Positions 28,079-46,973 of a stretch of 64,000 nt of DNA are shown piece after piece. Both the position numbers and the translations under genes were made by a program. A model generated the notes under the pieces. It was not told where the DNA came from and did no database searches. It saw only the letters and a list, made by a program, of their open reading frames with translations. Origin of the DNA: Bryoerythrophyllum caledonicum (Eukaryota; Streptophyta; Bryopsida; Pottiales; Pottiaceae); NCBI GenBank assembly GCA_963971425.1, contig OZ020517.1:31282734-31346733 (forward strand), given 5' to 3'. Within the stretch, counting starts at the first letter, position 1, and every line of letters starts with the position of its first letter.

Positions 28079-29757
28079 TGTAAACATTAAAATTTTTATA
28101 GTAAACCTTTTTTCAAATTGACAGTGTAAATAGGGCTTCAAGTTAGGTTATTTTAGAAATAAACTAGTAAAGTAACCTATGGCGGCTAGGAGATTTGAAA
28201 AGGTGTTTAGTTATACAAACGGTTAGGATTTGGGTAGTTTTTTTATAGTTATATGGCGGCTGTGACTTTTGAGATCCAGATTTGAAGCGGTGTCAACTAA
28301 ACTTTCTAACCAACATAAGTAAGGCTGTGAAGAAAGAAGAACACCACACAACATTGCAGTTTTATATTTTGAGTGTGTGGGTCCTTGTCGGTAAGCTTGA
28401 GTGCTAGTATTTAGAATAGGCTGAGTTATTGCAACACTGATGGATGTTCAAATCAAAGTCTGATGAATTGTGCTTTGCAAGAATAATAATAACATTAATA
28501 TCTATTATCAAAGTGTTGAATTTAAGAAGACTAGTTAACTGAGAGGAGTTTTGTCAATTAGACTAAGGTAGGTGAGATACTGAATCATAGTTGATAGAGG
28601 TACAAAAAACAGGATCCAAGTCAAGTTGACTGATGAGGTGATGGAAGACCATGGTGATACATGAATGTGTAGTGAACAAAAGGGAGATTGTCAAATTGAC
28701 ATGGTTAACTGGAGCGCAACACATGTCAAATTAAAGTGTCACAGATGGGAAAGTGAGAGTTATTTTTGGGAATTAAATTGTAGTTGAGTCAGTTGTATAA
28801 TGAAGTAAACTGAACAATGCATTTCCCTATTAGCAAATTATTTACTGTGCACAGTAGAATAATTTGAATTATTAAATTAAATTAGAATGATGGCATAAGG
28901 AGATGCATCATTTGAAGGCATGGCGAGGAGCATGGCCTTGAAGAGTGTTAAGATGATCCCAGAGAGAGGAGTCTTAGTTAAGTGACATCATTGTGTAATT
29001 GTGAAATAGAAACCAATTGGATTCTGTAGATTAGTAGGCCTAACTAATTTAGTGGAAATCTAATTGAAGGACTAGATACAAAATTAAGAAATTAAAACTA
29101 GCATATGATTGATGAGAGATCTTGTGAGGATTGATCTCCCTCATTTAAGTATTGATTATTGTCGTTGTAATAATTTAGTTTCATTTCTTCTTGTAAGTCC
29201 ATAAACGGTATTTACAATCAAGGGAGAATGATGTGAGAAAGAAAGAAATATGTAAATCCCGGGTATTATAATTATTATTAAAAATGAAATAGGAAGTTGG
29301 AAGTGAAAGATGAAGATGTATCGGAAGAGAAAAGCGGATATTGCTTGAGATAAGTAGATATCTTTATGTGAATGCCTTCTATAGATTGTGATTTATACAT
29401 ATTATAAAGTAAAGAAAATGGAAAGCAAAGTAATGGTGAAACTTGTCTATTGGACCAAAGTACTGTCTATTTGACGAGGCTAGAACCGCCTAAGGGTGAC
29501 ATCCCTTGTTACAGTCGAATTGAATTACACCATAACCTTTAAGAGAATGGGACATGATAAGAGTGAGATTTAGATAATTTATAGTATAGCTTTGGGTTTA
29601 CTTGGAAGAATACTTTGTGTATTGAAGAATTATCTTCTTGGTGAACTACAAGTGACCATTAATTACACCAAAAACGCTAAACGAAAAGACCTTCTCCCGA
29701 ACCAACCTTATTATGTAGCTTGGGGTTAATTAAAGGATTACAAAATTTAACACTACA
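28079..29757 (+). repeat. 5' LTR of the plus-strand element
   Basis: The LTR starts TGTAAACATT and ends AACACTACA, and its partner is at 42573-44251. It contains five exact GTCNANTNGAC palindromes at 28553, 28620, 28690, 29445 and 29465. Such an LTR should hold the promoter and polyadenylation signals; I did not pin these down. Confidence 0.95.
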
Positions 29758-29761
29758 TTTT

Positions 29762-29779
29762 TGGCGCCGCTGCCGGGGA
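29762..29779 (+). promoter_or_regulatory. Primer-binding site, tRNA-Asp type
   Basis: TGGCGCCGCTGCCGGGGA starts four bases after the LTR. It is complementary to the 3' end of plant tRNA-Asp with one difference from the common Athila-type site. It primes minus-strand cDNA synthesis. Confidence 0.9.
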
Positions 29780-30114
29780 ATTAGGTTCCGGTTAAGCGGT
29801 AGCTAATGTTGTAGTATTTACAAAGAATCTAGATAATTCTGAAATTATTGTTTTAGTTTTATTTTTTATTTTTAAAAAAAAAAAATTTAATTAAAAAATA
29901 AAAATGAAAATTGAAAGTTTAAATACATATCTTTTCCATAAAAATACCACTTAAGGAAAATGATGTTTATTTTCAAAAATTCATAAACCTTACAAATGGA
30001 TAAAACCATTCCAAAATATCATAAACATTCACAAAGTATTAAATTCCAACCTATACCTGAAAACAAAAAAATAAAAAATTGTACTTGTTGTACAATCAGT
30101 CATGTTATTAAACC

Positions 30115-30612
30115 ATGTCTCAATTCCCATGGGAAGTGAGTAAAGAGAGTGTGTGTGAATTTTTTAGAGGACCTTATTTATTTGCGGCCTTATACCGAGT
30201 GTATAGAGGTTCATATTACGGGCAGGGATTCCAATTTTATGGTAGACAATTTAAAAGTGATATAGAATTCCAAAATAAATTTAATCAATTACCACTTGAT
30301 ATAAAACAAATAATACTATCTAAAATTTGGGATCAAGGAAAAGAATTCAATGAAATAGTTGTGAAAAGAAAAACATTGTATTTGAAATTTCAATTACAAT
30401 TTTTGTTTGCTCAATATGGTAGAATAAAATACCAGACACAACCATTAATTTCTAAAAGTTGTGGAATATGGAACGGTTTTAAATTTGATAGAGAAACCTT
30501 TGTTTTTATTTATGGTAGATTTAATCCTCGAAGTAAGATATTTTTTCCGGATTTCTTTTCAAAAGATCCTACCTACCCAGACTCTATAGCATTTGATTTA
30601 TTATGCATCTAA
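30115..30612 (+). CDS. Small leader ORF 1 between primer-binding site and gag
   Basis: A 165-codon frame starts with ATG (MSQFPWEVSK) and encodes an aromatic-rich, basic product (FQFYGRQFKSD, FVFIYGRFNPR). It resembles no domain I recognise. It lies in the leader where simple Gypsy elements have no gene, and is followed four bases later by another ORF. In an AT-rich leader with abundant TAA codons, 165 codons is long enough to suggest selection. It could be an accessory gene or a relic. Confidence 0.5.
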   Translation: MSQFPWEVSKESVCEFFRGPYLFAALYRVYRGSYYGQGFQFYGRQFKSDIEFQNKFNQLPLDIKQIILSKIWDQGKEFNEIVVKRKTLYLKFQLQFLFAQYGRIKYQTQPLISKSCGIWNGFKFDRETFVFIYGRFNPRSKIFFPDFFSKDPTYPDSIAFDLLCI

Positions 30613-30615
30613 AAC

Positions 30616-30909
30616 ATGAATAATTCAAGTGAAACTACAGAAGAATTGACAAGGCGTTTAAGAAGATTGTTAATAATCTATTCAAATATTAAATACAACG
30701 AAATTAGATTATTCAATCTTGTAGAAAAAGAAATTGAAAAAATTAGAATAGAAAATCAAAATAATGTAGAAAAAAGAAAATTAATTAAAAGACTTGTAAG
30801 AGGATTTAAATACCCGCGAGAATTGTCAGTGGAAAGACTATACCCAAATAAAGAAGTTGAACGATTTTCCCTTACCAATTGGTGCCAGTATTGTTTTTTC
30901 TTCAAATGA
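30616..30909 (+). CDS. Small leader ORF 2
   Basis: A 97-codon frame begins four bases after the stop of leader ORF 1. The product is Arg/Lys/Glu-rich and probably helical (EELTRRLRRLL, KEIEKIRIENQ). No domain is recognised. Its end overlaps the start of the next ORF in another frame. Confidence 0.4.
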   Translation: MNNSSETTEELTRRLRRLLIIYSNIKYNEIRLFNLVEKEIEKIRIENQNNVEKRKLIKRLVRGFKYPRELSVERLYPNKEVERFSLTNWCQYCFFFK

Positions 30910-31196
30910 ATTATAGGAATGATTTAGAGGGTTCTAAACTTGAAACTCCTAAAGATAGAATCCTTAATAAATTATTTGGTAAATTGGCCCAATATCAAGA
31001 TTTAGGACCTAATGATAAAGAGTTATTTGAACTAACGGAACAAGAAATTGATAGATTATTAGGGTTAGCTAGTGCATGGATGAGTGCGGATACAATGAGT
31101 GATATACTAACACGTTGTCCATATCCTAGACACCCAAAGGAAGAGATAGAAACAATGAATCTATCGGAGGAAACACTTTTTTTGTGTTTAAGTTAG
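30879..31196 (+). CDS. Small leader ORF 3
   Basis: A 105-codon frame overlaps the end of leader ORF 2. An internal ATG at 30909 (MNYRNDLEGS) may be the true start because it directly follows the previous stop region. The product is acidic and helical. It ends 51 bp before the gag ATG. No family is recognised. Confidence 0.4.
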   Translation: MVPVLFFLQMNYRNDLEGSKLETPKDRILNKLFGKLAQYQDLGPNDKELFELTEQEIDRLLGLASAWMSADTMSDILTRCPYPRHPKEEIETMNLSEETLFLCLS

Positions 31197-31247
31197 GTGG
31201 GAAAGTACGTGGGAATGTATGAATAATAAATTACATGGCATCCTTAA

Positions 31248-34200
31248 ATGTCAAAAAAGTATAATGAATTAAGGGAAATCGAAAATAAAGCAAGAGATGA
31301 ACGTCAAAGAAAAAGAGCAAAAGGAAATGACAGATCATTAAGGTCAATACTAGTTGGTATTAATAACCCAATATATGATACTACCCCTTCTCCTAATCCT
31401 TTGGATTCTCAACTTTCTGGATTTACTTTTGGGTTTCCATTACCAGATCATTATGAGGAAGAATATAGAAAATTACTAGCATCTCCTAAAACACCGGAGA
31501 GTTATAAACCAGAAGTTGTTCTAGTTGCAAATGAGCAATTAAGGGAAACTGTAGAGGCTGGAAGAAAGAGTTTTTCTTATTATACTACCTCTAGTGAAAT
31601 ACAAAGTCCTGAGGAAACTAAAATAAAATCACCTAGATATCGAAAAGGAAAGGAACCCAAACTTGGGTTAACTGTGGAGATAAAAGTGAAAGAAGAATTT
31701 ATTGGAAGTTCTTCGGAAAACTCAACGATTAAACAATTAAATTTTCAAACTCCAACTCTAAATGATAATTTAGATTCATCTAATTCATTGAGTGATTATT
31801 TTAAGTTGAGAACTAGAATTAATAGTATAAAGGATTCTCTTAATCTTCAAAATCCTATTGATAATATTAAGAAGGAACAAATTGAGGGGACACCTTCTTC
31901 ACCCAATCCAAATCTAGATGAATCTTCTCATAAGGAGCAAAATGTTGACTCTAAGAAATTATCTAAGGAAAATTCACAAAAGATAGAAGAGAAAGAGAGT
32001 GAAGAGAATGTAAAGGAAGATCAAACAACAACAAGAATATTTAGCTCTCCTTTACCTAATAGACCACCTATTCCACCACCACCTCCGAAAATACCAATAT
32101 ATCCTATCAATATGGCAGCACCACCACGTATCCTAAATATAGCACCTTATCCTATTTTTCATGGATACCCTGGATCTGATCCAGATCGACACTTGGATAG
32201 ATTCCGAGTAGTTGCAAATGCAAACCAGTTACCTGAAAATTTATATTTATCTACTTTTCCTAGTACCTTGCTGGATGATGCCCATCAATGGTATGTTCAA
32301 CTTGAACCTCCGGAAAACTGGGAAGCACTTAAAACCACTTTTCTTGCTAGATTTCGTCCTAGGTCATTTATTCCTGGATTGATTGATCGATTCCGTACTA
32401 TTCGGATGGGAGTAAATGAAGGAATTGACTCTTATTACACAAGATTCAATACCCTTCTAAAAAGATGGTCAGGACACGCATTGGGAAATCAAATGTTGTC
32501 TTGTACCTTTGTAGGGGGAGTTTGGCCAGAGGAGTTAAGAATATATTTAAAAGAACATAACCCTGAAGATATTGCTACGGCCTATGCCTTAGCCAAAACT
32601 TGGGAAGAAGCAAGGGTCAATACAGATTTTGCACAATATGCTGATGGTTATCCACCACGGAGAGAAGGATATGATCATATTCTTGGAATGGATATTTATG
32701 GAAAAGATCATTATCCTTATCCCTCAAACAGACTTCAATTGCCACTGGCACCAATCCCGTTACAAATGAACAATCCAAATACGCAACTTTTGGCCATTAA
32801 AGGATCAAAAGATGATGCCATGATGGAAAACATTTCTAAACTTGAAAAGAGATTGAGTGAGTTGTCTGTACAAGTGACAGGAGGAAAGGAAAAGAGAGCT
32901 AGACCTATAAATATAAGGACAAATGTATGGTGTACCAACTGTAAGGGACATGGACATCTATCAAATGAATGTCCTACTCCCATTGGAGATGCTTATAACC
33001 TTAGACTTAAATGTACTTTTTGTGGAGGGTCTCATGATGTATCCAATTGTTGGAATTTGGGAAAAGTAGTTGCAGCCGTTAGTGCAAATATACAACCCAT
33101 TCACAAATCTAAAGAACCATATAATGTTACCTCAAAAAGGCCATTTACCAGACCTAATACGGGAGAACCTTATAGACCTGGAGATGGTAGACCTCGATGG
33201 GGTACCAATTATAATTCAGCTCCAAATTGGAATGGACCACCTTCCAACCCCAATACCCGTCGTTATGGGACCCCTGAAAAAGGAAAGATTTTTGTTTGTT
33301 GGAATTGTGACGAGCTAGGCCATATGGCTAAAGATTGTCCTAATGCAAGGAAACAAGTGGGTTATAATCCATTATGTGGGAGATGTGGTGAAAATGGCCA
33401 CACTGCCAATGATTGTAATGCACCTACACCAATAAGGCGGGTACAATTTGATGAATCTAGAAATTCTCACAATGTTAATCAAATAACAGAAGAAATTAAT
33501 GAACCAACTAAAGAAGTGTTTGTAACACGATCCGCTAATAAAGCGAAATTAGCGTTGATAGAGAGTGATCAGGCAAGTAGTTCTGATAATGACTATAAAA
33601 CTGCAAAAATAGGAAAGGGAAAATTATTAGAAAAGAAACAATCTAATCCACAAAAAATAGTTTCCGATCCAGTGAGTTCGGAACCAAATTTAATTCCTGA
33701 CATTCCTATAATTGTGGAAAAATCCACACCTATCAGTATTCCATTGAATTCCCAACCAGGAATCAATCCAGTTTTATCAACACCAGAACTTCCAAAAGAA
33801 ATACCAACAATAGCTTCTCTTGACCCAAGTACTTCTACATTACACTCTTTCTATAAAAATCCCAAAAAGAAATTAATTGAAACAACTAGTGCAAGAAAGA
33901 GAAAATACAATCGAAGTATGCGGTTAGCAGAAGGGATGACGCCATATGATATACTAACTAATATGGAAAAAATTCAACCCGACATTTCTCTTAGACAATT
34001 GTTGGCAATTGCACCTAAATGTCGTGGTGAATTGAGTTCATCTTTAGTTAGAAAAAGGGCTAAGGTTGTAGATGTTAATGATATTTCCTTAGATCTCGGA
34101 GCTCCAACTGTTGATGTAATAATTGATGGTACATTGATTGATGGAGTACAAATTGATAGTGGTTCAAGTGTAAATCTCATGAATGTAGATACTATGGAAG

Positions 34201-35105
34201 AATTAGGTCTTAAGACCATGACTTCCACGCCCATAGTCCTAAGAATGGCTGATCAAAGTAGAGTATTACCTTTAGGAATACTCAGAAATGTAGAAACCGT
34301 TATAAGTGGTTTATCTTTTAAAATCAACTTTGTTGTTTTCAAAGTCAGTGAATCAATATCTACTTATCCAATCCTTTTAGGGAGACCTTGGTTAAAAATG
34401 GCCAAAGCAAAAGATGATTGGAATAAGGGTACAATAACCATAGGGGAAAAAAGGAATAAAATTGTATTACCTATGTTCCCAATTGAATATCAGGGAGAAA
34501 CTCAAGATGATGATACTGATGTCACCTCTGAGAATTCCTATGATAAAGAAACTGAAACTACTCAACAAGTCGCTAAGGAAATGCCACAAATCAAATGTAT
34601 AGGATTAGGAGAATATTCATGCCTAAAAGAATTAGAAATAGACTCAGATGATGCTATTTTAGCTTGGGAAAATACTCCTACATTTAATATAACAGTTGAA
34701 GTTGAATCTGAATTAGAACCACCTTATATAAGTGATTCAGAAGAATTAGTAGAGAACATGTTTCATACAAAGTTTAAAAAACTTCCACCTCCAAAAAGTT
34801 CTTGTATAGAAATGAACTTAGGAACGGTGGACGATCCAAAAAATATCAAAATCTTTAATGGACTAGATCCTACAGAATTAAGAGAATGGAAAATCTTTTT
34901 TGAAGAATGTAAGGATACTTTTGCTTGGACTTATAAAGATCTCAAAGGTATCCCTCCAGAAGTATGTCAGCACAGAATCATTTTAGAACCTAACACCCAA
35001 CCAGTAAGACAGAGACAATACCGAATGAATCCTAAATATTCCCTTATGGTAAAAGAAGAGATAGATAAACTCTTGGAATGTGGATTTATTTATCCTGTTC
35101 CCTAA
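31248..35105 (+). CDS. Gag, protease and N-terminus of reverse transcriptase
   Basis: This 1285-codon frame starts at ATG 31248. Residues 1-280 are a charged, disordered extension ending in a Pro-rich stretch. A retrotransposon-gag region follows, with YLSTFPSTLLDDAHQWYVQL and WEALKTTFLARFRP near residues 325-375. Four zinc knuckles are visible: CTNCKGHGHLSNEC, CTFCGGSHDVSNC, CWNCDELGHMAKDC and CGRCGENGHTANDC, between about 560 and 725. The protease carries DSGSS near residue 970 rather than DTG. The RT N-terminus ends FIYPVP at a TAA (35103-35105). The minus-strand sister element reads Tyr at that position, so TAA is probably a mutation, or else a readthrough stop. The downstream frame continues in register. 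Confidence 0.92.
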   Translation: MSKKYNELREIENKARDERQRKRAKGNDRSLRSILVGINNPIYDTTPSPNPLDSQLSGFTFGFPLPDHYEEEYRKLLASPKTPESYKPEVVLVANEQLRETVEAGRKSFSYYTTSSEIQSPEETKIKSPRYRKGKEPKLGLTVEIKVKEEFIGSSSENSTIKQLNFQTPTLNDNLDSSNSLSDYFKLRTRINSIKDSLNLQNPIDNIKKEQIEGTPSSPNPNLDESSHKEQNVDSKKLSKENSQKIEEKESEENVKEDQTTTRIFSSPLPNRPPIPPPPPKIPIYPINMAAPPRILNIAPYPIFHGYPGSDPDRHLDRFRVVANANQLPENLYLSTFPSTLLDDAHQWYVQLEPPENWEALKTTFLARFRPRSFIPGLIDRFRTIRMGVNEGIDSYYTRFNTLLKRWSGHALGNQMLSCTFVGGVWPEELRIYLKEHNPEDIATAYALAKTWEEARVNTDFAQYADGYPPRREGYDHILGMDIYGKDHYPYPSNRLQLPLAPIPLQMNNPNTQLLAIKGSKDDAMMENISKLEKRLSELSVQVTGGKEKRARPINIRTNVWCTNCKGHGHLSNECPTPIGDAYNLRLKCTFCGGSHDVSNCWNLGKVVAAVSANIQPIHKSKEPYNVTSKRPFTRPNTGEPYRPGDGRPRWGTNYNSAPNWNGPPSNPNTRRYGTPEKGKIFVCWNCDELGHMAKDCPNARKQVGYNPLCGRCGENGHTANDCNAPTPIRRVQFDESRNSHNVNQITEEINEPTKEVFVTRSANKAKLALIESDQASSSDNDYKTAKIGKGKLLEKKQSNPQKIVSDPVSSEPNLIPDIPIIVEKSTPISIPLNSQPGINPVLSTPELPKEIPTIASLDPSTSTLHSFYKNPKKKLIETTSARKRKYNRSMRLAEGMTPYDILTNMEKIQPDISLRQLLAIAPKCRGELSSSLVRKRAKVVDVNDISLDLGAPTVDVIIDGTLIDGVQIDSGSSVNLMNVDTMEELGLKTMTSTPIVLRMADQSRVLPLGILRNVETVISGLSFKINFVVFKVSESISTYPILLGRPWLKMAKAKDDWNKGTITIGEKRNKIVLPMFPIEYQGETQDDDTDVTSENSYDKETETTQQVAKEMPQIKCIGLGEYSCLKELEIDSDDAILAWENTPTFNITVEVESELEPPYISDSEELVENMFHTKFKKLPPPKSSCIEMNLGTVDDPKNIKIFNGLDPTELREWKIFFEECKDTFAWTYKDLKGIPPEVCQHRIILEPNTQPVRQRQYRMNPKYSLMVKEEIDKLLECGFIYPVP

Positions 35106-37583
35106 AGTGAATGGGTATCACCTATAGTAGTGGTTCCTAAGAAAAATGGCAAATTGAGAATTTGTCAGGATTTTCGTAAATTAAATAGTGTAACTAAGAA
35201 AGATTACTTTCCTTTACCATTCACTGATGCTATCCTTGATGGAGTAGCAGGTCATGAGTGTTATTCTTTCTTAGATGGTTTTTCAGGTTACAATCAAGTA
35301 AAAATAGCACCTGAAGATAGACCCTTAACAACTTTTACCACTGACTGGGGTACTTTTGCCTATAATGTCATGCCCTTTGGGTTATGTAACGCACCTGCTA
35401 CATTCCAAAGAACAATGACAACAGCATTCCAAAAATATTTGCGAAAATTTATTGAAATTTTCTTAGATGACTTTTGTGTCTTTAGCACTAAAGCAGAACA
35501 TAGGGTATGTTTGAAAAAATGCTTTGAACAATGTCATGAATATGGTATTTCCATAAATGCAGCCAAGTCAGAATTTACAGTACCATGCGGGAGGTTAGTA
35601 GGACATATTGTATCCCTACATGGAATTGGAGTAGATCCTGATAAAATAGCAGTTATTTTAGCTTATGAAACACTTGTTCATATCACTGGACTCAAAGGAT
35701 TTTTGGGAGCTATAGGTTATTACCGAAGATTTATTTACCTATATGCAGAAATTGCAGCACCCTTAACTCATTTGACAAAACAAACTGATACCCCCGGAAT
35801 TTGGACTGAAGAATGTACTAAGGCGTTTGAAAAATTGAAAAGATGTCTTAGTAAAGCTCCAATTCTTATTTCCCCTAATTGGAATATCCCTTTTGAAGTA
35901 TATGTAGATGCTTCCAATTTTGCAATTGGGAGTGTATTAAGTCAAAAGGATGCTAAAGGTCATGATCGACCAATCTACTTTGCAAGTAGACAATTGAGTG
36001 CTGCAGAAAAGAACTATTCTGTAACTGAAAGAGAAGGGTTAGGAATGGTTTTTTCTGTTAAAAAATATAGACATTATTTGTTAGGATATAAATTCACTTT
36101 TCATGTGGATCATGATGCTTTAAAATATATGGTTAATAAACCCCAACTTAGTGGAAGGATTGCAAGATGGGTTTTATTACTTCAAGAATTTAATTTTACC
36201 GTTGATGTCCGACCGGGAAGAAAACATGCTAATGCAGACTTTCTTTCGCGTGTCAGTGAAGAAGTTAATCCTATTTCTATTAATGATAGTTTTCCAGATG
36301 CTAATCTTTTTCAAGTGGATGTTATCCCCATAGAATATGCTGATGTTCTTCATTATTTGAAAACCAATACATTTCCTCATGATTATACGGATAAACAAAA
36401 ACATAAATTAATATATAAAGTACAACCTTATACTTTAATTTCAAATGTACTTTACAAGAAAGGAAAAGATGGGATTTTAAGACGATGTATTAACCCGGGT
36501 GAAGTGCCCATGATCCTTAAAGGATGTCATGATGACATTTGTGGGGGCCACTTTGCCGGTTTAGTGACAGCCAATAAAGCATTACAATCTGGTTATTGGT
36601 GGCCTACCTTGTTTACGGATGCCCATAAATACACCCAGAAATGTGATCCATGCCAAAGAGTGGGTAAACCCACTCCCTCTACTGCAATGCCATTAAATCC
36701 AATTTTAGCCCAAACGCCATTTGAAAAATGGAGCATAGACTTTGTGGGACCTATTAAACCACCAAGTAGGCATGGACAAAAACGGTATATTTTGGTTGCA
36801 ACAGAATATGTAACCAAATGGGCAGAAGCATTACCAACAAAAACTGATGATGCAAAAACAGTTGCAAAATTCTTATATGAAAATATTATTATCCGGTTTG
36901 GTTGTCCTAAAGAATTGGTAAGTGATAGGGGCACACATTTTTTGAATGATATAATTGAACAATTGACTACAAAATATTTAATTAAGCATAGAAAAACTAC
37001 CCCTTATCATCCAAGGGCTAATGGACAAACGGAGAAAACAAATGGCATTTTATGTCGTATAACCACAAAAACGGTTCAAGGTTCAAACGTAGATTGGGAT
37101 GCTAGAGTATATGATGCTTTATGGGCCTATAGATGTGCCTATAAAGTCTCCACTAAATTTACCCCATTTCAATTAGTTTATGGCTTAGAAGCCATATTAC
37201 CTATTGAAATGGAAATACCAACTTTACGAATTGCACTTGATGAAAGATTAGGAGATGAGGAATCATTAAAACAAAGATTATATATGTTAGAAAGATTAGA
37301 TGAAACAAGAGCTCAAGCTTACTTGAATAACATGACAATTCAAAACCAACGCAAATCTTACTATGATAGTAAACTTAAACCAAAAATCTTAAAATCAAAT
37401 GATTTGGTATTATTATATGATAGTCGTTTCCAAAAATTTCCCGGAAAATTTAGAATGCGTTGGTTTGGCCCCTATAAAATTCTTAATTCTTATCCTAATG
37501 GCTCTATTGAACTACAAGATTTTGAGGGACGAATTCATTTGACAAGATACAATGGATACCGTATTAAACCCTATAAAACTTGA
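35106..37583 (+). CDS. Reverse transcriptase, RNase H and integrase
   Basis: This segment is in frame with the upstream gag-PR after one TAA, so no new start is needed; the first ATG is at 35130. RT blocks include VVPKKNGKLRICQDFRKLN, FLDGFSGYNQV, MPFGLCNAPATFQR and the catalytic FLDDF. RNase H shows YVDASNFAIG, ATGs such as HVDHDALKY, and ADFLSR at its end. Integrase has a Cys pair in KCDPCQRVG, then IDFVGP, VSDRGTHF and RANGQTEKTNG, giving D-D-E. The C-terminus ends LYDSRFQKFPGKFRMRWFGPYK, with no chromodomain. A purine-rich AAGGAGGGG follows 14 bp after the stop. Only the nonsense codon upstream prevents expression. Confidence 0.93.
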   Translation, partial: SEWVSPIVVVPKKNGKLRICQDFRKLNSVTKKDYFPLPFTDAILDGVAGHECYSFLDGFSGYNQVKIAPEDRPLTTFTTDWGTFAYNVMPFGLCNAPATFQRTMTTAFQKYLRKFIEIFLDDFCVFSTKAEHRVCLKKCFEQCHEYGISINAAKSEFTVPCGRLVGHIVSLHGIGVDPDKIAVILAYETLVHITGLKGFLGAIGYYRRFIYLYAEIAAPLTHLTKQTDTPGIWTEECTKAFEKLKRCLSKAPILISPNWNIPFEVYVDASNFAIGSVLSQKDAKGHDRPIYFASRQLSAAEKNYSVTEREGLGMVFSVKKYRHYLLGYKFTFHVDHDALKYMVNKPQLSGRIARWVLLLQEFNFTVDVRPGRKHANADFLSRVSEEVNPISINDSFPDANLFQVDVIPIEYADVLHYLKTNTFPHDYTDKQKHKLIYKVQPYTLISNVLYKKGKDGILRRCINPGEVPMILKGCHDDICGGHFAGLVTANKALQSGYWWPTLFTDAHKYTQKCDPCQRVGKPTPSTAMPLNPILAQTPFEKWSIDFVGPIKPPSRHGQKRYILVATEYVTKWAEALPTKTDDAKTVAKFLYENIIIRFGCPKELVSDRGTHFLNDIIEQLTTKYLIKHRKTTPYHPRANGQTEKTNGILCRITTKTVQGSNVDWDARVYDALWAYRCAYKVSTKFTPFQLVYGLEAILPIEMEIPTLRIALDERLGDEESLKQRLYMLERLDETRAQAYLNNMTIQNQRKSYYDSKLKPKILKSNDLVLLYDSRFQKFPGKFRMRWFGPYKILNSYPNGSIELQDFEGRIHLTRYNGYRIKPYKT

Positions 37584-37596
37584 GGACAAGTTAATA

Positions 37597-37611
37597 AATT
37601 AAGGAGGGGAC
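37597..37611 (+). promoter_or_regulatory. Internal polypurine tract after pol
   Basis: TTAAGGAGGGGACA follows the pol stop and nearly repeats the true polypurine tract TTAAGGAGGGGGCTA at the 3' LTR. It may prime plus-strand DNA internally, or mark the end of an ancestral, shorter element before the third ORF region was added. Confidence 0.55.
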
Positions 37612-37689
37612 AATAGTTAAATAGTGAAATACAGAAATTAAAAAATTCAAAATAAAAAAGTATTTTTTTTATTTTTTATTTTTTTAAAA

Positions 37690-37720
<31 letters not shown>

Positions 37721-39480
37721 AAAATAAAAATTAGGAGTAAGAAAAATTGGAAGAAATTAGAAATTCAAATGGACTGAGGATAAGTAAAGTAGGCAATGAG
37801 TAATTAGTAAGTAAAAGAAATTGTCGATTAGACTAAGTGGTCATAAATGAACACGTCAGTCACTTACACATGAGTTAAAGTCATGATGACACGTGGAAGT
37901 GATGGATGATGCCCATTAAGGCACTTAATAGTCAAATCGACGGTTATTGTGAGTGTCTACTGGACGTAACCGAATGTGGCGGTTACAGGGAGAACCAAGA
38001 CAGAACAATTTTAGTGTTTGTGTGGTTGTTTTGTTTCTTGAGTCTTGGTTGTGTTTTGAGAGTGCGAGCGCTTAGTCGAGTTGACAAGAGAACACTTGGG
38101 GAGCAGGGAGTGGTGTGTGTCAATTGGACTGTTGGAGAGAGCCGAAAGAGAGAATGCGGAAGGACCAAGAGACCGTCAAGTTGACAACAAGCGGCACTTA
38201 GGGTTTGGATTGCAGTTCTGTGTGGTGTAATTGTTGTATTGTAAGTTGGTTGTGGCAAGAAAACCTTAACGTACATTGAAAAAACAATTGCATTGTTCAG
38301 TTTGATGTTGGTGTAACTGGCAATATGGAAAACACGCAAGTCCAGTAGACAGATAGAGATTTTTTCTCACTAATTACTTTGTTTGGTGGGAAACCGTGTA
38401 CAACACACAGAAGTGGAGGTCAAAGAACCTGTGAGTAGAGATGTGCGACAAGAGAGAAAGTTGAGAAAACCTTATCGTCACAGTCAAGTTGAAAGCTACA
38501 GGTGAGAGTGTCAAACTGCGCCTCTAGGGTTTGTGTATGCAGCATTTGATTAAAGCCATGTGTTAACTGTCACCTTGGTCGACTTGACTTTGAATCAGTT
38601 TTGTCTGTATGTAGAATGAGTACATGAGTATCGTGTTTTGAAAGAGTTCACAGCTGAGAAAGAGAAAGAAAAAATTAGTATATTTAGTTGGACTGACAGA
38701 AACTGCAATCAGTCGATTTGAATTGAACATCAGAGACTGCAATCGCAGAAATGTTGAGAGAAAATCAGGAAGTGAGAGAAATTTCTGTTGAAAGAACTAA
38801 CAACTAATTTATGCTAACAATTAACTCTGCCAAGTCCCAAAATGTTATTGCGTCATTTGGTTTCAATTCTGTTTGCTCAAAAGAAACGCAGTATGACAAT
38901 TTGTCGAGTTGTACATGAGTTAAGTTGAGAGTCACAAGTGTAAAATAAAAATTAAAAAATTAAAAAAATAAATAAATAAAATAAGAATAAATAAAAAGAG
39001 ACTAGGTCAAATCGAGAGGTAGTTGGTAGGTAGCATACAGTGCGTAGAGGAATCAATAACATGCCAAGGGACATAATGTCATTTTGTCAAATAGACACAA
39101 GTTAGACAACAGTAGTCAAGTTGAGACAGAAAAGAAAGTAATCTTATTAGTGAGTATCTAATGGACCCTTTCACTTATCTGACCTTAAAAAGACTGGTCT
39201 GAACTTAAAAAGAGAGTAGGTCAGGTCAAATAGACTAATAAAGCCTATTTTTCACGAGTTAGACTTGCATAATTAAGGAAAATTCAGAAAATAAGTATGT
39301 AGAAAATAAGAATTGAGAGTAAGAGAGTTAATAAAAAAAATAATAAAAAGAAATAAGTTGGAAACATGAAGTTGCACATGGATGTTAACGGAAGTGGCGA
39401 AATGATCCAGTTGACATGGGCGGTGTACATGTATGATTGTCAATTGGACTCCATTAACAGACTGTTGCAAGTAAAGAAAC
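37612..39480 (+). other. Spacer between pol and third ORF, rich in GTCNANTNGAC
   Basis: This 1.9-kb spacer has no convincing gene. It contains AAAT-type microsatellites (about 37688-37722 and 38960-38995) and eleven exact GTCNANTNGAC palindromes. It probably is the leader of a transcript for the third ORF. Confidence 0.6.
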
Positions 39481-42400
39481 ATGAAGACCAGCAAGACAAA
39501 GAAGATGAACCTTCCAGCGCCTACTCCTTCACAAGCAGAGCCAGTGCCTCCAACCAAGAAGATTAAGGAGCTGAGCCTCAAGAAGATGTCAGCCGATGTG
39601 TGGAGTCAAGTTGAAGCTAACAAGGTCAATTTGAAAGCAGCAGGATTGTGGGATTTCCTTCTGTTAACTTTTGAGCCGCAAGACAATGACTGTGTCACAC
39701 AGTTTTTAAACTCCACGTTGTTTGGAACAAAGACGGAAGCAGTGGTCGACAAGACTCTGTATGACTTTACAGCTTTCAGTATATCGGAGATTTTGAATCT
39801 GTACCAGGGCTCCGGTCAAATTGAAAGAGAAGTTGGTACTGTCAAGATTGTGGATTTGGCAGGTCTATTTGACGTAGGAGCAGTTGCCGAAGGAGAGTGC
39901 AATCCAGAGAAGGCACGAGGTATTTGGGCGGAATGGTTACCATTTTTTAATGAACGCATTCTACTGGCAGAACGTGGCACTAACAGAATGACCAAAGAAG
40001 GAGTAGCAGCGGCGATCCAGGGTTGGAATGGAGCCAAACTCAGTTGGGGTAATACGTTGTTTGAAAAAATCAAAGTAGAGATTGGGAAGAAGCAGACAAA
40101 GACCCCGTTTGCGTTGTATAGTGTTGTATACCTTTCCACCTTGGTGAAGCCTAGATCATCTACAGAAGGATCAGTAGTTTCCGGAAAGAATGCATCTCTC
40201 CCTAAGTTAGGGGACTTAATGAGAAAGGAGTTAGTCAAATTGACGAGAGAGCCATTTGACTCAGTTCTGTTAACTAGACATACTAATAGTGGAACTGGAG
40301 GTGAAGGCGGCTCCTCATCTGGAGACTTCTTAGTCCGCCATTGGCCACGTACTGCGGCACCAGTCCACACCTCAAGTCCAATCGACTTAACTCGGAGCCA
40401 AAATGAAGAAGTGTTGGCAGAGGTCAATTTGATTGCGACTGCACCTACAAAGAAGCAGGGGAAGAGGGCGTCGCGAGTTACCCCCAAGATGAGGAAGGAT
40501 GCAGAAGCAAGAGAGGCCCAATTACAAGATGAACTAGAGCGCTTGGAACAACAGATGATTACGGATTCCGAGGCTAATCTGGAAACGATTAGATTAACTC
40601 GTTTGGAACTGGTCAATTTGACGACAGTAAACGAGGGCATACTGGCTGAAGCTGCTAAGAAACAACTGGACGCAACTAGGTACAAGGAATTGTACCAGAA
40701 GGAGAGAGACGAGCATTTAGCGTTGAAGAATCAGATGGAGCAACTACAAGCAGAGTATAACCAAGATGCAGCGTTTCATCAACAAGAGCGACAGCAAAAG
40801 GAGGTTTTGCGAGCCCAACTGGCGGACGCTATAGAAACTCACCGACGGGAGTTGGAGAATCTTCAACCTCCTCCAGTTGAAGTCAAAAGTGCTGAGATGA
40901 ACCGCCTGATGCTTGAAGTGGAGGCACTTCAGCTCCTTCTTCAAGACGCACGAGGTCAAATGGATGGAGGCGGCCTTGAAGTGGATCGGTTACAAGCGGC
41001 ATTGTGGAAAGTCAACTTGACATCACCCGCCACTTATTCACTGTTTAGAGCTTATGAGCTCCAGCGAGATACGGTGTTCACGATTTTCAACCGGGCGAGA
41101 TATTGTCAACTTGACGCGGTAGAGTTTGACCGAGCCTGGCGAATGGTGATCGGAATGCACAATGCGGAGAATCTCATCTGTGAGATGATTGCACGCGGTG
41201 ACGTCAAATTGACTGAGGCTAGTAAGCTACTCATTCCCATTGGTCATTTAGGTGCACGAGTGACGCTGTATTATTTGAACTTGGAAGCCCAATTACATCA
41301 GAGACGTCAAATGGACGTGGCAGTAGAGAGCCAAAGACCGACAGGAGTACAGGACTTTGCTAACCAAGTAGCGGAAGTTGCACTGACTACATCGCCTGAA
41401 GTTTTGGAAGCATGGGAAGAATTGATGAAGGGATTGAAGCGAGCGGTAAGTAACCAGGACAACGTTCGTGTCAAATTGTCCTATGTGCTGGAGCGGGAGG
41501 GCTGCGCTCAACGAGGAGAACTGTCGACTGGACACTATGTATATGGGCTAGCCCAATCTCACCGTGACTTGAGGCGAATCTTAGATCAGTTGAGGGATCG
41601 TCAATTTGACATCACTCCACATAATGCCCAAGTACAGTTACTTTTACCTCCAGCCACGTTTGCTTCACCGACCTGGCTCCATATTCGAACTCCAGTGACT
41701 GGTTCTCATGCAAAGGAGTATTACCTTGGACACTATGATCGTCTATTTGACAGGGCGTTTGAGCAACCTGTTCTGACATGGTCAGCGATTACCTGGTTGT
41801 TAGAAGATTACGGACTATCAAGAACTGAAGAGCGATCATGGGACCTGGTGTACAAGGCAGTAGTGGACCACACATGGACCATGACACCGCCTATCGCTAT
41901 GAGTACCAACGCCCATTTCTGCAACCTAGTTCCGCGACGTTTCAAGTGGGATCCACAGGCCACTATTGATTCGGTGGAATATAACTGGCCCCTGATACCG
42001 GATCAATTTGACACTGTCAACAACTGTGCGGATGCCTATGAGGAGTTCTGGACTGCGCACCATCAACACACGGATCCAGTGTGTTTCCGAGCAGCCGTTT
42101 TCGCCAAGTTCCTGTCTTATATGTGTAGGACGTTCAAGGTGATCATCGACGTGAATAGGTTTGATGATCGAAAGCCCGAGTTTTTGCTTGCTCTTAAGCT
42201 GCGGTATCACAGTGCGCGATGGAGTAGAATGTTGGAAATTATGTCCATGATGCATTTTTTGTATGGTACTAACGGGTGTTTCATCAACGAGTTTAACGGC
42301 ACGAGGAAGGTGGCAATCGACAACTGGCTTACGTTTCAGCACACGAATCGAATAGAGTTACTTCAATTTGACGATGATGTGCGGCGGGACGCGAGCAAGT

Positions 42401-42483
42401 TGATGGCACAGCGCATCCAAGACAATACCAGGCATCAGGACAACCACCGTAACAAGCGACCCCGACTCTGAAGTCAAGTTGAC
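37823..42483. promoter_or_regulatory. Dispersed array of GTCNANTNGAC palindromes
   Basis: I found 23 exact copies starting at 37823, 37931, 37955, 38075, 38119, 38175, 38340, 38578, 39086, 39225, 39439, 39863, 40234, 40376, 40612, 41011, 41105, 41203, 41306, 41523, 41600, 41751 and 42473, plus many with one mismatch. Five more lie in each LTR. I saw none in gag-pol (31.2-37.6 kb). With eight fixed bases, chance predicts about one per 65 kb. In the ORF the motif occupies different codon phases (VNLT/VKLT versus RQFD), so it is kept at nucleotide level. It is probably a protein-binding or small-RNA target motif. Confidence 0.8.
39481..42471 (+). CDS. Large third ORF downstream of pol, coiled-coil protein
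   Basis: A 996-codon intact frame lies in the position of the env-like ORF of Athila elements. No signal peptide or membrane segment is visible, so an envelope role is not supported. The N-terminus is basic. Residues 25-240 form a globular region (FSISEILNLYQGSG, RGIWAEWLPFFNERIL) reminiscent of plant-transposon third-ORF domains. Residues 330-460 form a long coiled coil (DELERLEQQM, LKNQMEQLQAEY). A second globular region fills 520-980 and the C-terminus is basic (NKRPRL). It is intact although gag-pol has a stop. The array of GTCNANTNGAC sites in and around it suggests, as inference only, that it encodes a sequence-specific DNA-binding or anti-silencing protein of the element. Confidence 0.8.
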   Translation: MKTSKTKKMNLPAPTPSQAEPVPPTKKIKELSLKKMSADVWSQVEANKVNLKAAGLWDFLLLTFEPQDNDCVTQFLNSTLFGTKTEAVVDKTLYDFTAFSISEILNLYQGSGQIEREVGTVKIVDLAGLFDVGAVAEGECNPEKARGIWAEWLPFFNERILLAERGTNRMTKEGVAAAIQGWNGAKLSWGNTLFEKIKVEIGKKQTKTPFALYSVVYLSTLVKPRSSTEGSVVSGKNASLPKLGDLMRKELVKLTREPFDSVLLTRHTNSGTGGEGGSSSGDFLVRHWPRTAAPVHTSSPIDLTRSQNEEVLAEVNLIATAPTKKQGKRASRVTPKMRKDAEAREAQLQDELERLEQQMITDSEANLETIRLTRLELVNLTTVNEGILAEAAKKQLDATRYKELYQKERDEHLALKNQMEQLQAEYNQDAAFHQQERQQKEVLRAQLADAIETHRRELENLQPPPVEVKSAEMNRLMLEVEALQLLLQDARGQMDGGGLEVDRLQAALWKVNLTSPATYSLFRAYELQRDTVFTIFNRARYCQLDAVEFDRAWRMVIGMHNAENLICEMIARGDVKLTEASKLLIPIGHLGARVTLYYLNLEAQLHQRRQMDVAVESQRPTGVQDFANQVAEVALTTSPEVLEAWEELMKGLKRAVSNQDNVRVKLSYVLEREGCAQRGELSTGHYVYGLAQSHRDLRRILDQLRDRQFDITPHNAQVQLLLPPATFASPTWLHIRTPVTGSHAKEYYLGHYDRLFDRAFEQPVLTWSAITWLLEDYGLSRTEERSWDLVYKAVVDHTWTMTPPIAMSTNAHFCNLVPRRFKWDPQATIDSVEYNWPLIPDQFDTVNNCADAYEEFWTAHHQHTDPVCFRAAVFAKFLSYMCRTFKVIIDVNRFDDRKPEFLLALKLRYHSARWSRMLEIMSMMHFLYGTNGCFINEFNGTRKVAIDNWLTFQHTNRIELLQFDDDVRRDASKLMAQRIQDNTRHQDNHRNKRPRL

Positions 42484-42559
42484 AGCGAATTGAAGCTCGA
42501 CTGTCGACCTTGACAGTGCACTCCTTGTCTAGTTGAACTTGCCGGGAGTCAAGTAGATT

Positions 42560-42570
42560 AAGGAGGGGGC
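42560..42570 (+). promoter_or_regulatory. Polypurine tract
   Basis: AAGGAGGGGG lies directly before the 3' LTR (TGTAAACATT at 42573) and primes plus-strand DNA synthesis. Confidence 0.9.
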
Positions 42571-42572
42571 TA

Positions 42573-44251
42573 TGTAAACATTAAAATTTTTATAGTAAAC
42601 CTTTTTTCAAATTGACAGTGTAAATAGGGCTTCAAGTTAGGTTATTTTAGAAATAAACTAGTAAAGTAACCTATGGCGGCTAGGAGATTTGAAAAGGTGT
42701 TTAGTTATACAAACGGTTAGGATTTGGGTAGTTTTTTTATAGTTATATGGCGGCTGTGACTTTTGAGATCCAGATTTGAAGCGGTGTCAACTAAACTTTC
42801 TAACCAACATAAGTAAGGCTGTGAAGAAAGAAGAACACCACACAACATTGCAGTTTTATATTTTGAGTGTGTGAGTCCTTGTCGGTAAGCTTGAGTGCTA
42901 GTATTTAGAATAGGCTGAGTTATTGCAACACTGATGGATGTTCAAATCAAAGTCTGATGAATTGTGCTTTGCAAGAATAATAATAACATTAATATCTATT
43001 ATCAAAGTGTTGAATTTAAGAAGACTAGTTAACTGAGAGGAGTTTTGTCAATTAGACTAAGGTAGGTGAGATACTGAATCATAGTTGATAGAGGTACAAA
43101 AAACAGGATCCAAGTCAAGTTGACTGATGAGGTGATGGAAGACCATGGTGATACATGAATGTGTAGTGAACAAAAGGGAGATTGTCAAATTGACATGGTT
43201 AACTGGAGCGCAACACATGTCAAATTAAAGTGTCACAGATGGGAAAGTGAGAGTTATTTTTGGGAATTAAATTGTAGTTGAGTCAGTTGTATAATGAAGT
43301 AAACTGAACAATGCATTTCCCTATTAGCAAATTATTTACTGTGCACAGTAGAATAATTTGAATTATTAAATTAAATTAGAATGATGGCATAAGGAGATGC
43401 ATCATTTGAAGGCATGGCGAGGAGCATGGCCTTGAAGAGTGTTAAGATGATCCCAGAGAGAGGAGTCTTAGTTAAGTGACATCATTGTGTAATTGTGAAA
43501 TAGAAACCAATTGGATTCTGTAGATTAGTAGGCCTAACTAATTTAGTGGAAATCTAATTGAAGGACTAGATACAAAATTAAGAAATTAAAACTAGCATAT
43601 GATTGATGAGAGATCTTGTGAGGATTGATCTCCCTCATTTAAGTATTGATTATTGTCGTTGTAATAATTTAGTTTCATTTCTTCTTGTAAGTCCATAAAC
43701 GGTATTTACAATCAAGGGAGAATGATGTGAGAAAGAAAGAAATATGTAAATCCCGGGTATTATAATTATTATTAAAAATGAAATAGGAAGTTGGAAGTGA
43801 AAGATGAAGATGTATCGGAAGAGAAAAGCGGATATTGCTTGAGATAAGTAGATATCTTTATGTGAATGCCTTCTATAGATTGTGATTTATACATATTATA
43901 AAGTAAAGAAAATGGAAAGCAAAGTAATGGTGAAACTTGTCTATTGGACCAAAGTACTGTCTATTTGACGAGGCTAGAACCGCCTAAGGGTGACATCCCT
44001 TGTTACAGTCGAATTGAATTACACCATAACCTTTAAGAGAATGGGACATGATAAGAGTGAGATTTAGATAATTTATAGTATAGCTTTGGGTTTACTTGGA
44101 AGAATACTTTGTGTATTGAAGAATTATCTTCTTGGTGAACTACAAGTGACCATTAATTACACCAAAAACGCTAAACGAAAAGACCTTCTCCCGAACCAAC
44201 CTTATTATGTAGCTTGGGGTTAATTAAAGGATTATAAAATTTAACACTACA
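42573..44251 (+). repeat. 3' LTR of the plus-strand element
   Basis: It has the same length (1679 bp) and ends as the 5' LTR, with two differences noted by eye. Exact GTCNANTNGAC copies start at 43047, 43114, 43184, 43939 and 43959. It is followed by GAATG. Confidence 0.95.
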
Positions 44252-44750: not shown

Positions 44751-46973
44751 CTACTCACAATAGTTTAGGGATTTCTTGGGAAGTTGATCTAAGGGGAGAT
44801 TCCATTGGTTGAACTCGTGCCCCGGTGGCATAACATCTCTTATCCCCATCACTTTGTAGAATCTTGTGCTAATTGGAGAGCGACACATAGGACACGCCGA
44901 TTGTATCATAGAACCTGCGGAAATATAAGTAATATGAAAGTTATGGCCACATTGGCTCAACATATACGCTCCCTCTGGACCGAAATGATCTTGGCACAAG
45001 CTGCATTTGTCATTGAGGAATGCCGGAACATGGTCGCAAGTATGAATTACTCTTCGTTCCGATTCTACAAAATGTGATGAGAAGGTATTGTAGAGCACCC
45101 ATCCTTCCTCTACTTTTAAAGCCCAGTCAATACCATGGCTCTTTCCCTTCCGATGATAGTTTGTACAATCTATCATCTTCGGTACATCACCCCAAATAGT
45201 AACCTTTGTGGACTTATGTCCACGTTGGCCAACAAATTTCTTCAATTTCTTCAATGAGGTATCCACGAGTTCACACGATTCTTGTGATTCGACGGCAAAT
45301 TTCTTGAGATCATGTTGTGCTTTCGAGACCATGGTCTCCCTGTCTTGAAGGCGATGAACCCAACCCAACGAAGGCATTGTGTTCTCGTTCCATGGTGTGT
45401 CGTCCACCGATCTCAATGTCCTCCGCAGTGTCTCTAGTTCCGCTCGTGCCTCGTCCCTCTCCTTATTTGCCACCCCCAACTTCTGTGACATCAATTCCAT
45501 CTCCCCCTCACATTCCATTATTGTCTTTCCTTTTCCAGGCGCTTCTGGCCGTACTTGGCTACTCCCAGCTGGTACTGCCAATTGAACAGAAGAAGGCCCA
45601 GCGGTTCTGCTAGATTTGATCAGTGTGACATCCTCTGTATCATTCCCTACAAACTTGGAAAGAGCGAGGTCGTTCGAAGTTCCGTCGTTGTCCTGAATGA
45701 CCACCACATCCACCTCAGGCACCTGCGCATTCATCTTCTCCGACATCTTTTTAAGGACTTTCTCATTGGCCACGAGCTCCCACTTGTTCCCTTCCAATTC
45801 CCATTTAAGGTGTCTAGTGAGGGTTTCATTTTTATGGGCCTCCTCCTCCATATCCATCACTCTCTGAGTTAGCGCGACCGTTTCTCGTAACATTGGCAGT
45901 ATAGAGGAAGCCAATGTGTCGAAGCCATTAGCGCCTTGTAGCATATTCGGAGTGATACTTGAAAAAGCATGAGCCATTTTTAGAAGAGAAAGAGCCATTG
46001 CTGCAAGAGATTCGGCCCCGTTCTTCAAATCATAAGCCACTTCCACTACTTCATGTCTTTCGGCCCATTCCCTTGAATCACTTCTCAGATCGTTTGGATC
46101 ACAAAATTCCTTTGGTTCAATGCACGCTTCAGTCCACTTAACACTCAAGTCGAGCAAGTCATTGAACTTATCTTTGTTTGGCATGGTTCGAAACATTTCT
46201 TCAATATCAGAAATCAAAGTACCCTTGTCAATCATCGGGTCATTGGAATTTGGTTCCAATGTTTCCCGCGTTGAAGTATTTGGTCCGGCATCCATTGTCT
46301 CTAGTGCCATGCCTTCCAAAGTTTGAACATTTGGAACAAAGGTTTCTTCTCCATCCGTATTCTCCCCCCCTCGTTCCGCGTTACCATCGTCCTCACCTCC
46401 TACAATCACAATATTTGGAATATCTGATTGTACGGGGTCTTCTACCGTCGTTACCTCCAAAGTCTCTTCGGGGATTGTGGTTGACAATATATTATCGACC
46501 ACAATGTTCAAATGTTTGTCAGACTCCATCTCAACGGCAACCTCCTCCACCGATGGTTGTATTTTCGGCATGGTATGCACCGCGCTCATCTGACGAGGCT
46601 TTTTCTTCAACTCCTCCAAAATAGCCTTGGTCAAGATTGAATCATGATTGAATAAATCAGGAATATGCTTTTGATTTCGCCCAATCCTAAGCGGATAGTA
46701 TCTAGTAGTCGGAAACGTGCTCCAATCTACCTTTCGTTTCAACATGACCTTGGTGTATACCATTGATAGTAGGCTATAATTGAAAAACCCTTTGCTTCTT
46801 GCGCGATTCCCAAACAAAGCCCGCCAAACCTCCTCCGCACGATAAATGAAGTGGTCATCTTTGCACATCCACGGCTTGCAAGCAAAGTATGTTGTATGAC
46901 TTATGTGGCAATCTTTTGGCCAAAGTTTATTGATGTGGTACATCTTCACGTATTTCTTGCATGTCTTGGATAA
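44751..46973 (-). pseudogene. Coiled-coil protein with C-terminal RING-type zinc finger
   Basis: The frame is open for about 740 codons below a TAG at 46974-46976. Above the stop the same frame continues with acidic, Trp-containing sequence to near 47160, so the original start is upstream and this copy carries one nonsense codon. The N-terminus has CKKYVKMYHINKLWP, shared with the gene at 51977. The middle is acidic, then a long coiled coil follows (about residues 350-580). The C-terminus has C-X2-C (CSLC), then SQCGHNFH, then CPMC, a RING-H2-like cluster. RING proteins act as ubiquitin ligases; here that is only family knowledge. Several related copies in one window suggest a mobile or amplified family. 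Confidence 0.6.

Follow-up and report, generated by a model that had tools for sequence, protein, structure and literature searches.

A Ty3-type retrotransposon with a third ORF

The window, i.e., the whole 64 kb stretch of DNA that was analysed, contains a complete Ty3-type LTR retrotransposon on the forward strand (28079 to 44251). The element is bounded by two LTRs (28079-29757 and 42573-44251) which are 99.88% identical and have TG...CA ends, and the 5 bp target-site duplication GAATG is present on both sides. Between the LTRs, gag, protease, reverse transcriptase (RT), RNase H and integrase follow one another in the order of Ty3/gypsy elements. The element is young. The range originally given for the motif in one retrotransposon, 28553 to 43969, falls short of the full extent of the element. 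No Rfam match was found at the gathering threshold.

Immediately inside the 5' LTR is the sequence TTTTTGGCGCCGCTGCCGGGGA (29758 to 29779, forward strand), a putative primer-binding site, and a purine-rich stretch 5' of the 3' LTR (42556 to 42572, forward strand) is a putative polypurine tract by its position. Four ORFs are discussed here, all on the forward strand. A small ORF of 165 amino acids without a Pfam match (30115 to 30612) lies 5' of gag, followed by a gag-protease ORF that extends into the start of RT (31248 to 35105) and an RT-RNase H-integrase ORF (35130 to 37583). The latter two are in the same frame with an in-frame stop codon between them, and because this stop splits them, pol may be defective in this copy of the element. 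The last ORF (ORF3; 39481 to 42471) encodes 996 amino acids and is located 3' of pol. The position of ORF3, together with the sequence of the putative primer-binding site, suggests that the element may belong to the Athila/Tat lineage.

An 11-bp palindrome concentrated in the LTRs and around ORF3

The 11-bp palindrome GTCNANTNGAC occurs in 33 exact copies in the window, all of them within this element, which reproduces the count originally made (five per LTR and 23 between 37823 and 42483, i.e., in the segment from pol to the 3' LTR). Counting the LTRs once leaves 28 distinct sites. Five copies are found in the 1,679 bp of the 5' LTR (starting at 28553, 28620, 28690, 29445, and 29465), with counterparts in the 3' LTR (43047, 43114, 43184, 43939, and 43959). 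Eleven are located in the 1,897 bp between the end of pol and the start of ORF3 (37823 to 39449; starts at 37823, 37931, 37955, 38075, 38119, 38175, 38340, 38578, 39086, 39225, and 39439), a further 11 in the 2,991 bp of ORF3 itself (39863, 40234, 40376, 40612, 41011, 41105, 41203, 41306, 41523, 41600, and 41741), and one in the 101 bp between ORF3 and the 3' LTR (42473 to 42483). There are no exact copies in the 7,826 bp from the 5'UTR to the end of pol, including both gag-pol ORFs, as had been noted earlier, and none in the 47.8 kb of the window outside the element. First-order Markov simulations gave means of only 0.00 to 0.09 exact copies per region of the element and 0.46 outside it.

Copies with a single mismatch are also abundant, as claimed, with 22 in the 5' LTR and positions 37584-42572 combined compared with approximately 3.0 in simulations. 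Since 18 of these 22 deviate solely at the outermost G or C, the hard core of the motif is TCNANTNGA. The invariance originally described for GTC, the central A and T, and GAC thus holds for the core but not for the outer G and C, which are softer. The 5'UTR-gag-pol region has one such copy compared with 1.9 simulated, which is neither an excess nor a provable depletion. When 69,120 palindromic patterns were ranked, GTCNANTNGAC came first in the LTR and in positions 37584-39480, and second in ORF3, behind TCAANTTGA, which is a variant of the GTCNANTNGAC core.

The sites within ORF3 fall in all three codon phases (4, 6, and 1 sites in phases 0, 1, and 2, respectively), and their number exceeds anything seen in 5,000 synonymous shuffles of the ORF (mean 0.87, maximum 5). 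Together with the enrichment, in related proteins, of three peptide patterns, one per phase (see below), the shuffles bear out the claim that selection acts on the nucleic acid rather than on the protein. Chance, composition or the duplication of a single repeat unit is a negligible explanation for the excess, being contradicted by the three-phase excess in relatives, by the synonymous shuffles, by the Markov simulations, and by the surroundings of the sites. Sequences flanking the 28 distinct sites resemble one another no more than random places do, with a mean identity of 0.266 in direct and 0.244 in inverted orientation compared with 0.250 at random places. The arrays that Tandem Repeats Finder detected in the element are all A/T-rich and of low complexity, and none of them contains a motif site.

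An alternative is that a protein of the element binds the word in RNA, where it would serve packaging, export or dimerisation; on paper, the motif forms a hairpin of 3 bp that closes a loop of 5 bases. This is highly improbable, as the predicted hairpin energy averages only -0.66 kcal/mol, the bases adjoining the stem could pair in only 10 of 28 sites, and changes at the outer bases are mostly one-sided, with a pairable outer pair in four of the 23 core sites that do not have G...C. Furthermore, gag-pol, the bulk of the transcript, has no sites.

Sites encodable by relatives of ORF3

A search using ORF3 residues 530-996 as query returned 35 proteins, and P0003 as query returned 53, of which 32 were new. 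Among 7,997 candidates, nothing was found when the words were taken from residues 1-500 of ORF3, and no related DNA was confirmed in viral contigs or in bacterial or archaeal genomes. Judging by the type of element, the hosts of the related proteins are presumably plants. At the protein level, the relatives have an excess of the three peptide patterns that are able to encode the motif, one per reading phase, although a site encodable by a relative's protein is not necessarily encoded in its DNA. This shadow of the motif persists across related ORF3 proteins while the positions of the sites turn over, the outcome that had been predicted, here for encodable sites in proteins. Alignment columns were counted because kinship makes shared sites non-independent: P0039 and P0004 have eight of nine sites in common, and P0046 and P0047 are nearly identical.

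The shadow is restricted to one group of ORF3 relatives. In a tree from which P0035 and P0067 were omitted owing to short coverage, and in which P0036 and P0042 were tagged as motif carriers on weaker evidence (ranks 6 and 12), the node uniting P0038 with the other members of the motif group is supported at 0.26. The next node out has a support of 0.97 and adds P0048, P0049, and P0064, which do not have the motif. Among the shadow-bearing relatives, P0001 and P0035 are the only ones with the N-terminal domain of ORF3 in the available sequence.

The shadow also switches with lineage. Encodable sites in two relatives, P0001 and P0054, indicate the ATC-type variant ATCNANTNGAT. At the first aligned site, V.LT in the window protein and P0003 is replaced by I.LI in P0001, with LELL in P0036, the nearest relative of P0001; at the second, S/R/C-L-F/L-D gives way to NLFD in P0001 and to DLFD in P0054. 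The NQFD of a third candidate site occurs in P0002 and P0036 as well and provides no evidence for the switch.

Outside the group, a mild excess of the motif was observed in P0008 (p 0.021), P0052 (p 0.021), and P0024 (p 0.033), where the Poisson values, here as elsewhere, treat residues as independent. Other palindromes of the 256-pattern class were obtained for P0052 (GACNANTNGTC, corrected p 0.003), P0025 (0.049), and P0020 (0.086), but these are unconvincing, since the 0.1 level was also passed by five of the 68 proteins when reversed, with reversed P0020 giving the lowest value, 2.1e-4. In a wider scan, several proteins outside the group were topped by low-complexity patterns, e.g., CGNCGNNNNCGNCG in P0011 (p 7e-9).

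These data bear on whether a host protein, such as a WRKY factor or a chromatin protein, binds the sites with ORF3 uninvolved. Short binding sites are also repeated within a Ty3-type element in the Drosophila gypsy insulator, where the Su(Hw) sites are bound by a host protein and are confined to one small region. Position 8 is T in 15 of 28 sites, so that some half-sites read TTGAC, which resembles the W-box of WRKY factors. The two N positions beside the motif centre are variable, yet both half-sites are fixed; the shadow is limited to a single group among the relatives of ORF3 and changes with lineage; and ORF3 has a candidate DNA-binding fold of its own, as predicted below. We therefore consider a host binder improbable.

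The ORF3 protein and a possible self-recognition system

The N-terminal domain of ORF3 (residues 25-232; 39553 to 40176, forward strand) is PF20167-like in relatives and is predicted to have a VANC21-like fold: the single match in our fold comparison of the predicted structure was 9lnj, the structure of VANC21 bound to its DNA. The two share 12% sequence identity, which is compatible with divergent function. The five matches reported by Foldseek itself do not include 9lnj and none reaches an E value of 0.001, a sequence profile of the domain searched against the PDB up to E 10 found no VANC chain, and 14 members of the domain had no match to DUF1985 in Pfam up to E 1. Nothing in the viral structure library matched with an E value as low as 0.001. 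Of the 36 alignment members, 11 match PF20167 (Transposase_32) weakly at E values up to 0.1, the lowest being 9.1e-05. The middle of the protein (residues 335-514; 40483 to 41022, forward strand) consists of long helices (335-393, 398-460, and 471-514) predicted to form a coiled coil, with a possible role in dimerisation; its profile matches coiled-coil chains, and the best stretches among the 58 PDB matches of the full-length profile (up to E 1) are in this part. The C-terminal region (residues 521-990; 41041 to 42450, forward strand) is helical and conserved. A RING ORF at 44751-46949 was considered as kin of the ORF3 domain, but no relationship was found.

VANC proteins are described as the anti-silencing factors that VANDAL (Mutator-like) DNA transposons of Arabidopsis encode (PMC5735166; PMC10398659), with motifs in non-coding regions, often in tandem repeats (PMC5735166). 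The system described here resembles them in having an element-encoded protein, a short motif that has built up within the DNA of the element itself (28 distinct sites), related proteins with different motifs, and an N-terminal domain predicted to share the fold of VANC21 in its DNA complex. It differs in that its host element is an LTR retrotransposon, its motif is an 11-bp palindrome rather than the 9-base YAGTATTAY of VANC (the VANC21 motif is non-palindromic), similarity to VANC was not found at the sequence level (PDB profile, Pfam DUF1985), and ORF3 has an additional coiled coil and conserved C-terminal region. The original suggestion of a VANC-like build-up is thus upheld for the accumulation and strengthened by the fold match; the non-coding tandem arrangement of the VANC21 motif is not seen here, as the sites are dispersed and 11 of the 28 lie in ORF3 coding sequence.

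We favour self-recognition by the LTR retrotransposon, with a probability of roughly 0.6: ORF3, probably in dimeric form, would bind the palindrome and counter silencing in the manner of VANC. The VANC-type N-terminal domain and the coiled coil argue for a DNA-binding protein that is probably dimeric, and the dimer would bind the 11 bp of GTCNANTNGAC (core TCNANTNGA). Through the copies accumulated in both LTRs and across the segment from pol to the 3' LTR, many bound sites could mark the element's own copies, from which silencing marks would be removed or kept off. LTR transcription and ORF3 expression might thereby continue, as with VANC for VANDAL transposons. Several observations weigh against this reading: the Foldseek and sequence-profile results, the low identity to VANC21, the non-palindromic VANC21 motif with its non-coding tandem arrangement, the N-terminal domain seen in just two of the shadow-bearing relatives, the reliance on encodable sites in those relatives, and a second Ty3 element in the window with a related domain but no enriched palindrome.

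The same binding could serve a purpose other than anti-silencing, with ORF3 activating the LTR or an internal ORF3 promoter, regulating copy number, or steering integration or genome handling. The Tas/Bel-1 protein of foamy viruses, an element-encoded DNA-binding protein as proposed for ORF3, transactivates its own LTR and internal promoter through few sites; to our knowledge it is unrelated to ORF3 and has no motif spread through coding sequence. The LTR and the 1.9 kb 5' of ORF3, where promoters are expected, both contain sites, and a palindrome and a coiled coil would suit an ordinary dimeric regulator. We nonetheless regard this as unlikely, if the strongest of the alternatives, as the fold comparison points to a protein that opposes silencing and to no known activator, and 11 sites in the ORF3 coding sequence, hinted at in relatives too, exceed the needs of a promoter.

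In the open-access literature, we found no VANC-like system described for an LTR retrotransposon. If self-recognition by ORF3 is correct, sequence-specific self-recognition by mobile elements extends beyond a single group of DNA transposons, and this protein family would supply new sequence-specific tools to remove silencing. Since a protein, its candidate target and a solved protein-DNA complex as structural template (9lnj) are now available together, the question becomes one for a direct binding experiment. Asking whether related proteins could encode a given DNA word is a way to detect such systems from protein sequences alone.

In plant Athila/Tat retrotransposons, PF20167 proteins are described as products of additional 3' ORFs with unknown function, and the account of these ORFs in PMC11728184 reports no cognate motif for them. 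ORF3 shares their location 3' of pol, and its relatives match PF20167 weakly; unlike them, ORF3 itself has no Pfam match. Tentatively, and with rather less confidence than we attach to self-recognition by ORF3, the PF20167-type proteins 3' of pol in many plant LTR retrotransposons may form a large unrecognised branch of VANC-like self-recognition. Each lineage would write its own word into its own copies, including their genes, and change it in concert (e.g., GTCNANTNGAC to ATCNANTNGAT), and LTR retrotransposons would share one anti-silencing principle with DNA transposons.

A second Ty3 element in the window carries a PF20167-like domain. Its ORF is matched by the N-terminal-domain profile A3 at E 1e-12 and matches PF20167 at 2.7e-08 (34.3 bits, short of the curated threshold of 45). 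Despite this domain related to that of ORF3, no enriched private palindrome was detected in the second element. A different word was found there, and it is strand-biased.

The element and its palindromic word

The Ty3-type LTR retrotransposon (28079-44251, plus strand) was delimited by its LTR pair, target duplication and Pfam domains. Its 5' LTR (28079-29757) and 3' LTR (42573-44251), both 1679 bp and on the plus strand, are 99.88% identical with TG...CA ends, and a 5-bp duplication (GAATG) lies on both sides of the element, which marks the insertion as recent. The Pfam domains follow the Ty3 order (gag, zinc knuckles, protease, reverse transcriptase, RNase H, integrase). Despite the LTR identity and an open ORF3, an in-frame stop early in the reverse transcriptase splits the plus-strand gag-pol frame (31248-37583) into two same-frame ORFs (31248-35105 and 35130-37583), so this copy may have a defective pol. 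The 1.9 kb 3' of pol has no plus-strand ORF of at least 100 aa, and an ORF scan identified ORF3 as an uninterrupted 996-aa frame (39481-42471, plus strand), with the 3' LTR beginning 101 bp after it.

The DNA-level motif data come from one copy of the element. The 11-bp palindrome GTCNANTNGAC has 33 exact copies in the window, all within the element: five in each LTR, 11 in the pol-ORF3 interval, 11 in ORF3 and one after ORF3 (28 distinct sites when LTR sites are counted once). This bears out the original prediction, which counted 33 exact copies with five per LTR and none in gag-pol; the 5'UTR-gag-pol region contains no exact copy and one one-mismatch copy, which is chance level. First-order simulated sequence contained a mean of 0.00 to 0.09 copies per element region, and GTCNANTNGAC ranked first of 69,120 palindromic patterns in both the LTR and the pol-ORF3 interval. 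The flanks of the 28 distinct sites were no more alike than random places, and none of the tandem arrays in the element contains GTCNANTNGAC sites. Among one-mismatch copies in the motif-bearing regions, 18 of 22 differ at the outermost base alone, which makes TCNANTNGA the hard core.

Within ORF3, four, six and one of the 11 sites fall in codon phases 0, 1 and 2, respectively. In 5000 synonymous-codon shuffles that kept the protein, the mean number of exact sites was 0.87 (maximum 5), and the core TCNANTNGA, observed 20 times, had a mean of 3.35 (maximum 10). One DNA word is therefore encoded by differing peptide patterns, and the earlier claim that the motif occupies different codon phases under selection on nucleic acid is supported.

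Persistence and switching of the codable word in ORF3 relatives

Proteins related to ORF3 were tested through the motif sites that their sequences could encode, against a composition-based expectation. Searches with ORF3 residues 530-996 yielded 35 relatives, and 32 further were found via one relative, P0003. For the resulting 68 proteins (including the window ORF3) and 15,360 palindromic patterns, we counted places where some codon choice spells the pattern. GTCNANTNGAC was the top pattern in the window ORF3 (12 codable places, 1.25 expected) and in P0002, P0003, P0004, P0038, P0039 and P0067; it ranked second or third in P0035, P0037, P0040, P0046 and P0047. Its rank was 6 in P0036 and 12 in P0042. 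Motif-group relatives have 41 to 57% identity to their finding query. Nine representatives had an excess in all three phases (20, 50 and 12 sites versus 1.25, 3.94 and 1.51 expected); no excess was seen in their reversed sequences (1, 5 and 1 sites by phase) or in the sum of the 52 relatives outside the motif group (11, 26 and 14 versus 7.4, 25.4 and 13.1). A narrower scan of the 68 proteins, with 256 patterns of the same layout as GTCNANTNGAC, gave 17 proteins with a best pattern at corrected p < 0.1, namely GTCNANTNGAC in 11, ATCNANTNGAT in two, GTTNANTNAAC in one (P0040, with GTCNANTNGAC second) and other words in three. The reversed-protein control gave 5 of 68 at this threshold, with GTCNANTNGAC, ATCNANTNGAT and GTTNANTNAAC in none.

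The nine representatives hold 82 codable sites in 38 aligned columns, 22 of which are used by a single representative. Sites lie off the window-protein positions in 4 of 5 cases in P0001, 7 of 10 in P0002, 7 of 12 in P0003, 6 of 9 in P0004 and 6 of 8 in P0035. The codable word persists while its positions turn over, as would be expected from selection on a binding site rather than on a peptide.

The best pattern in P0001 (9 versus 1.22 expected) and P0054 (7 versus 0.40) is ATCNANTNGAT, which is GTCNANTNGAC with both outer bases altered. Each has a tree partner with the GTCNANTNGAC pattern (GTC-type), P0036 for P0001 and P0002 for P0054, which implies at least two motif changes. In this tree of 66 proteins, the 14 motif carriers cluster, with support of only 0.26 at the group's deepest node. 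One aligned site reads V.LT in the window protein and P0003 versus I.LI in P0001, as expected if both ends of the word changed. A second reads S/R/C-L-F/L-D in GTC-type members versus NLFD in P0001 and DLFD in P0054.

A possible self-recognition system

VANC proteins are described as binding short motifs built up in their own VANDAL element, leading to local loss of DNA methylation, with motifs that differ between related VANCs (passages in PMC5735166; PMC10398659). Our element has a matching set of parts, a protein of predicted VANC21-type fold and a word written into its DNA outside gag-pol. In the LTR, upstream of ORF3 and within ORF3, the sites fall in the stretches whose expression would have to continue. 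We therefore favour, with a probability of about 0.6, a model in which ORF3 would recognise its own element through GTCNANTNGAC and this recognition would then shield the element from silencing. The main rival, that ORF3 is a plain transactivator or copy-number regulator, seems rather unlikely. For self-recognition, ORF3 may act as a dimer, as suggested by the palindromic site and its predicted coiled coil. We infer that ORF3 binds the word from its predicted fold, from the motif switching and because the word is confined to a single group among the ORF3 relatives; anti-silencing as the outcome is proposed by analogy. N-terminal domain coverage was measured in nine relatives, seven of them in the motif group, and only P0001 and P0035 of these seven include the domain in their available sequence. 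Three proteins, the window ORF3 among them, therefore carry the link from domain to word.

One paper treats the function of the additional ORFs in Athila and other plant retrotransposons as unknown, and notes PF20167 for an Athila element (PMC11728184). Passages of a 2026 paper leave open whether additional-ORF proteins shape methylation (PMC12844716). We found no report of a VANC-like system in an LTR retrotransposon in the open-access literature searched.

Other features of the window

A Ty3-type element on the minus strand (1711-7395) has a C-5 cytosine DNA methylase ORF (3085-4242; PF00145, E 1.4e-09) between its RT/RNase H (1711-3072) and gag-protease-like (4720-7395) ORFs, and so seems to be a retroelement carrying a DNA methyltransferase, of which there are earlier reports. 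A LINE-like ORF (8665-10737, minus strand) matches endonuclease and reverse transcriptase domains (RVT_1, E 4.3e-07). Weak RING-finger matches, below curated cut-offs, were found in ORFs at 26138-26671 (plus strand) and 44751-46949 (minus strand); the latter begins 500 bp beyond the motif-bearing element and is unrelated to the ORF3 N-terminal domain.

A second Ty3 element (54248-64000, minus strand), with an LTR copy truncated at the edge of the window, contains a broken PF20167-like ORF (55984-56886). It has a word of its own, ACGGA, which occurs in its LTR and coding parts, with 62 sense-strand copies (LTR copies within the window counted twice) versus 14.9 expected under a first-order model and six on the opposite strand. 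The density of ACGGA is about 6.5-17 per kb there versus 0.7-1.4 elsewhere, and its count exceeds all 1000 synonymous shuffles in only one of the five ORFs. The strand bias points to an RNA or coding feature rather than a DNA site.
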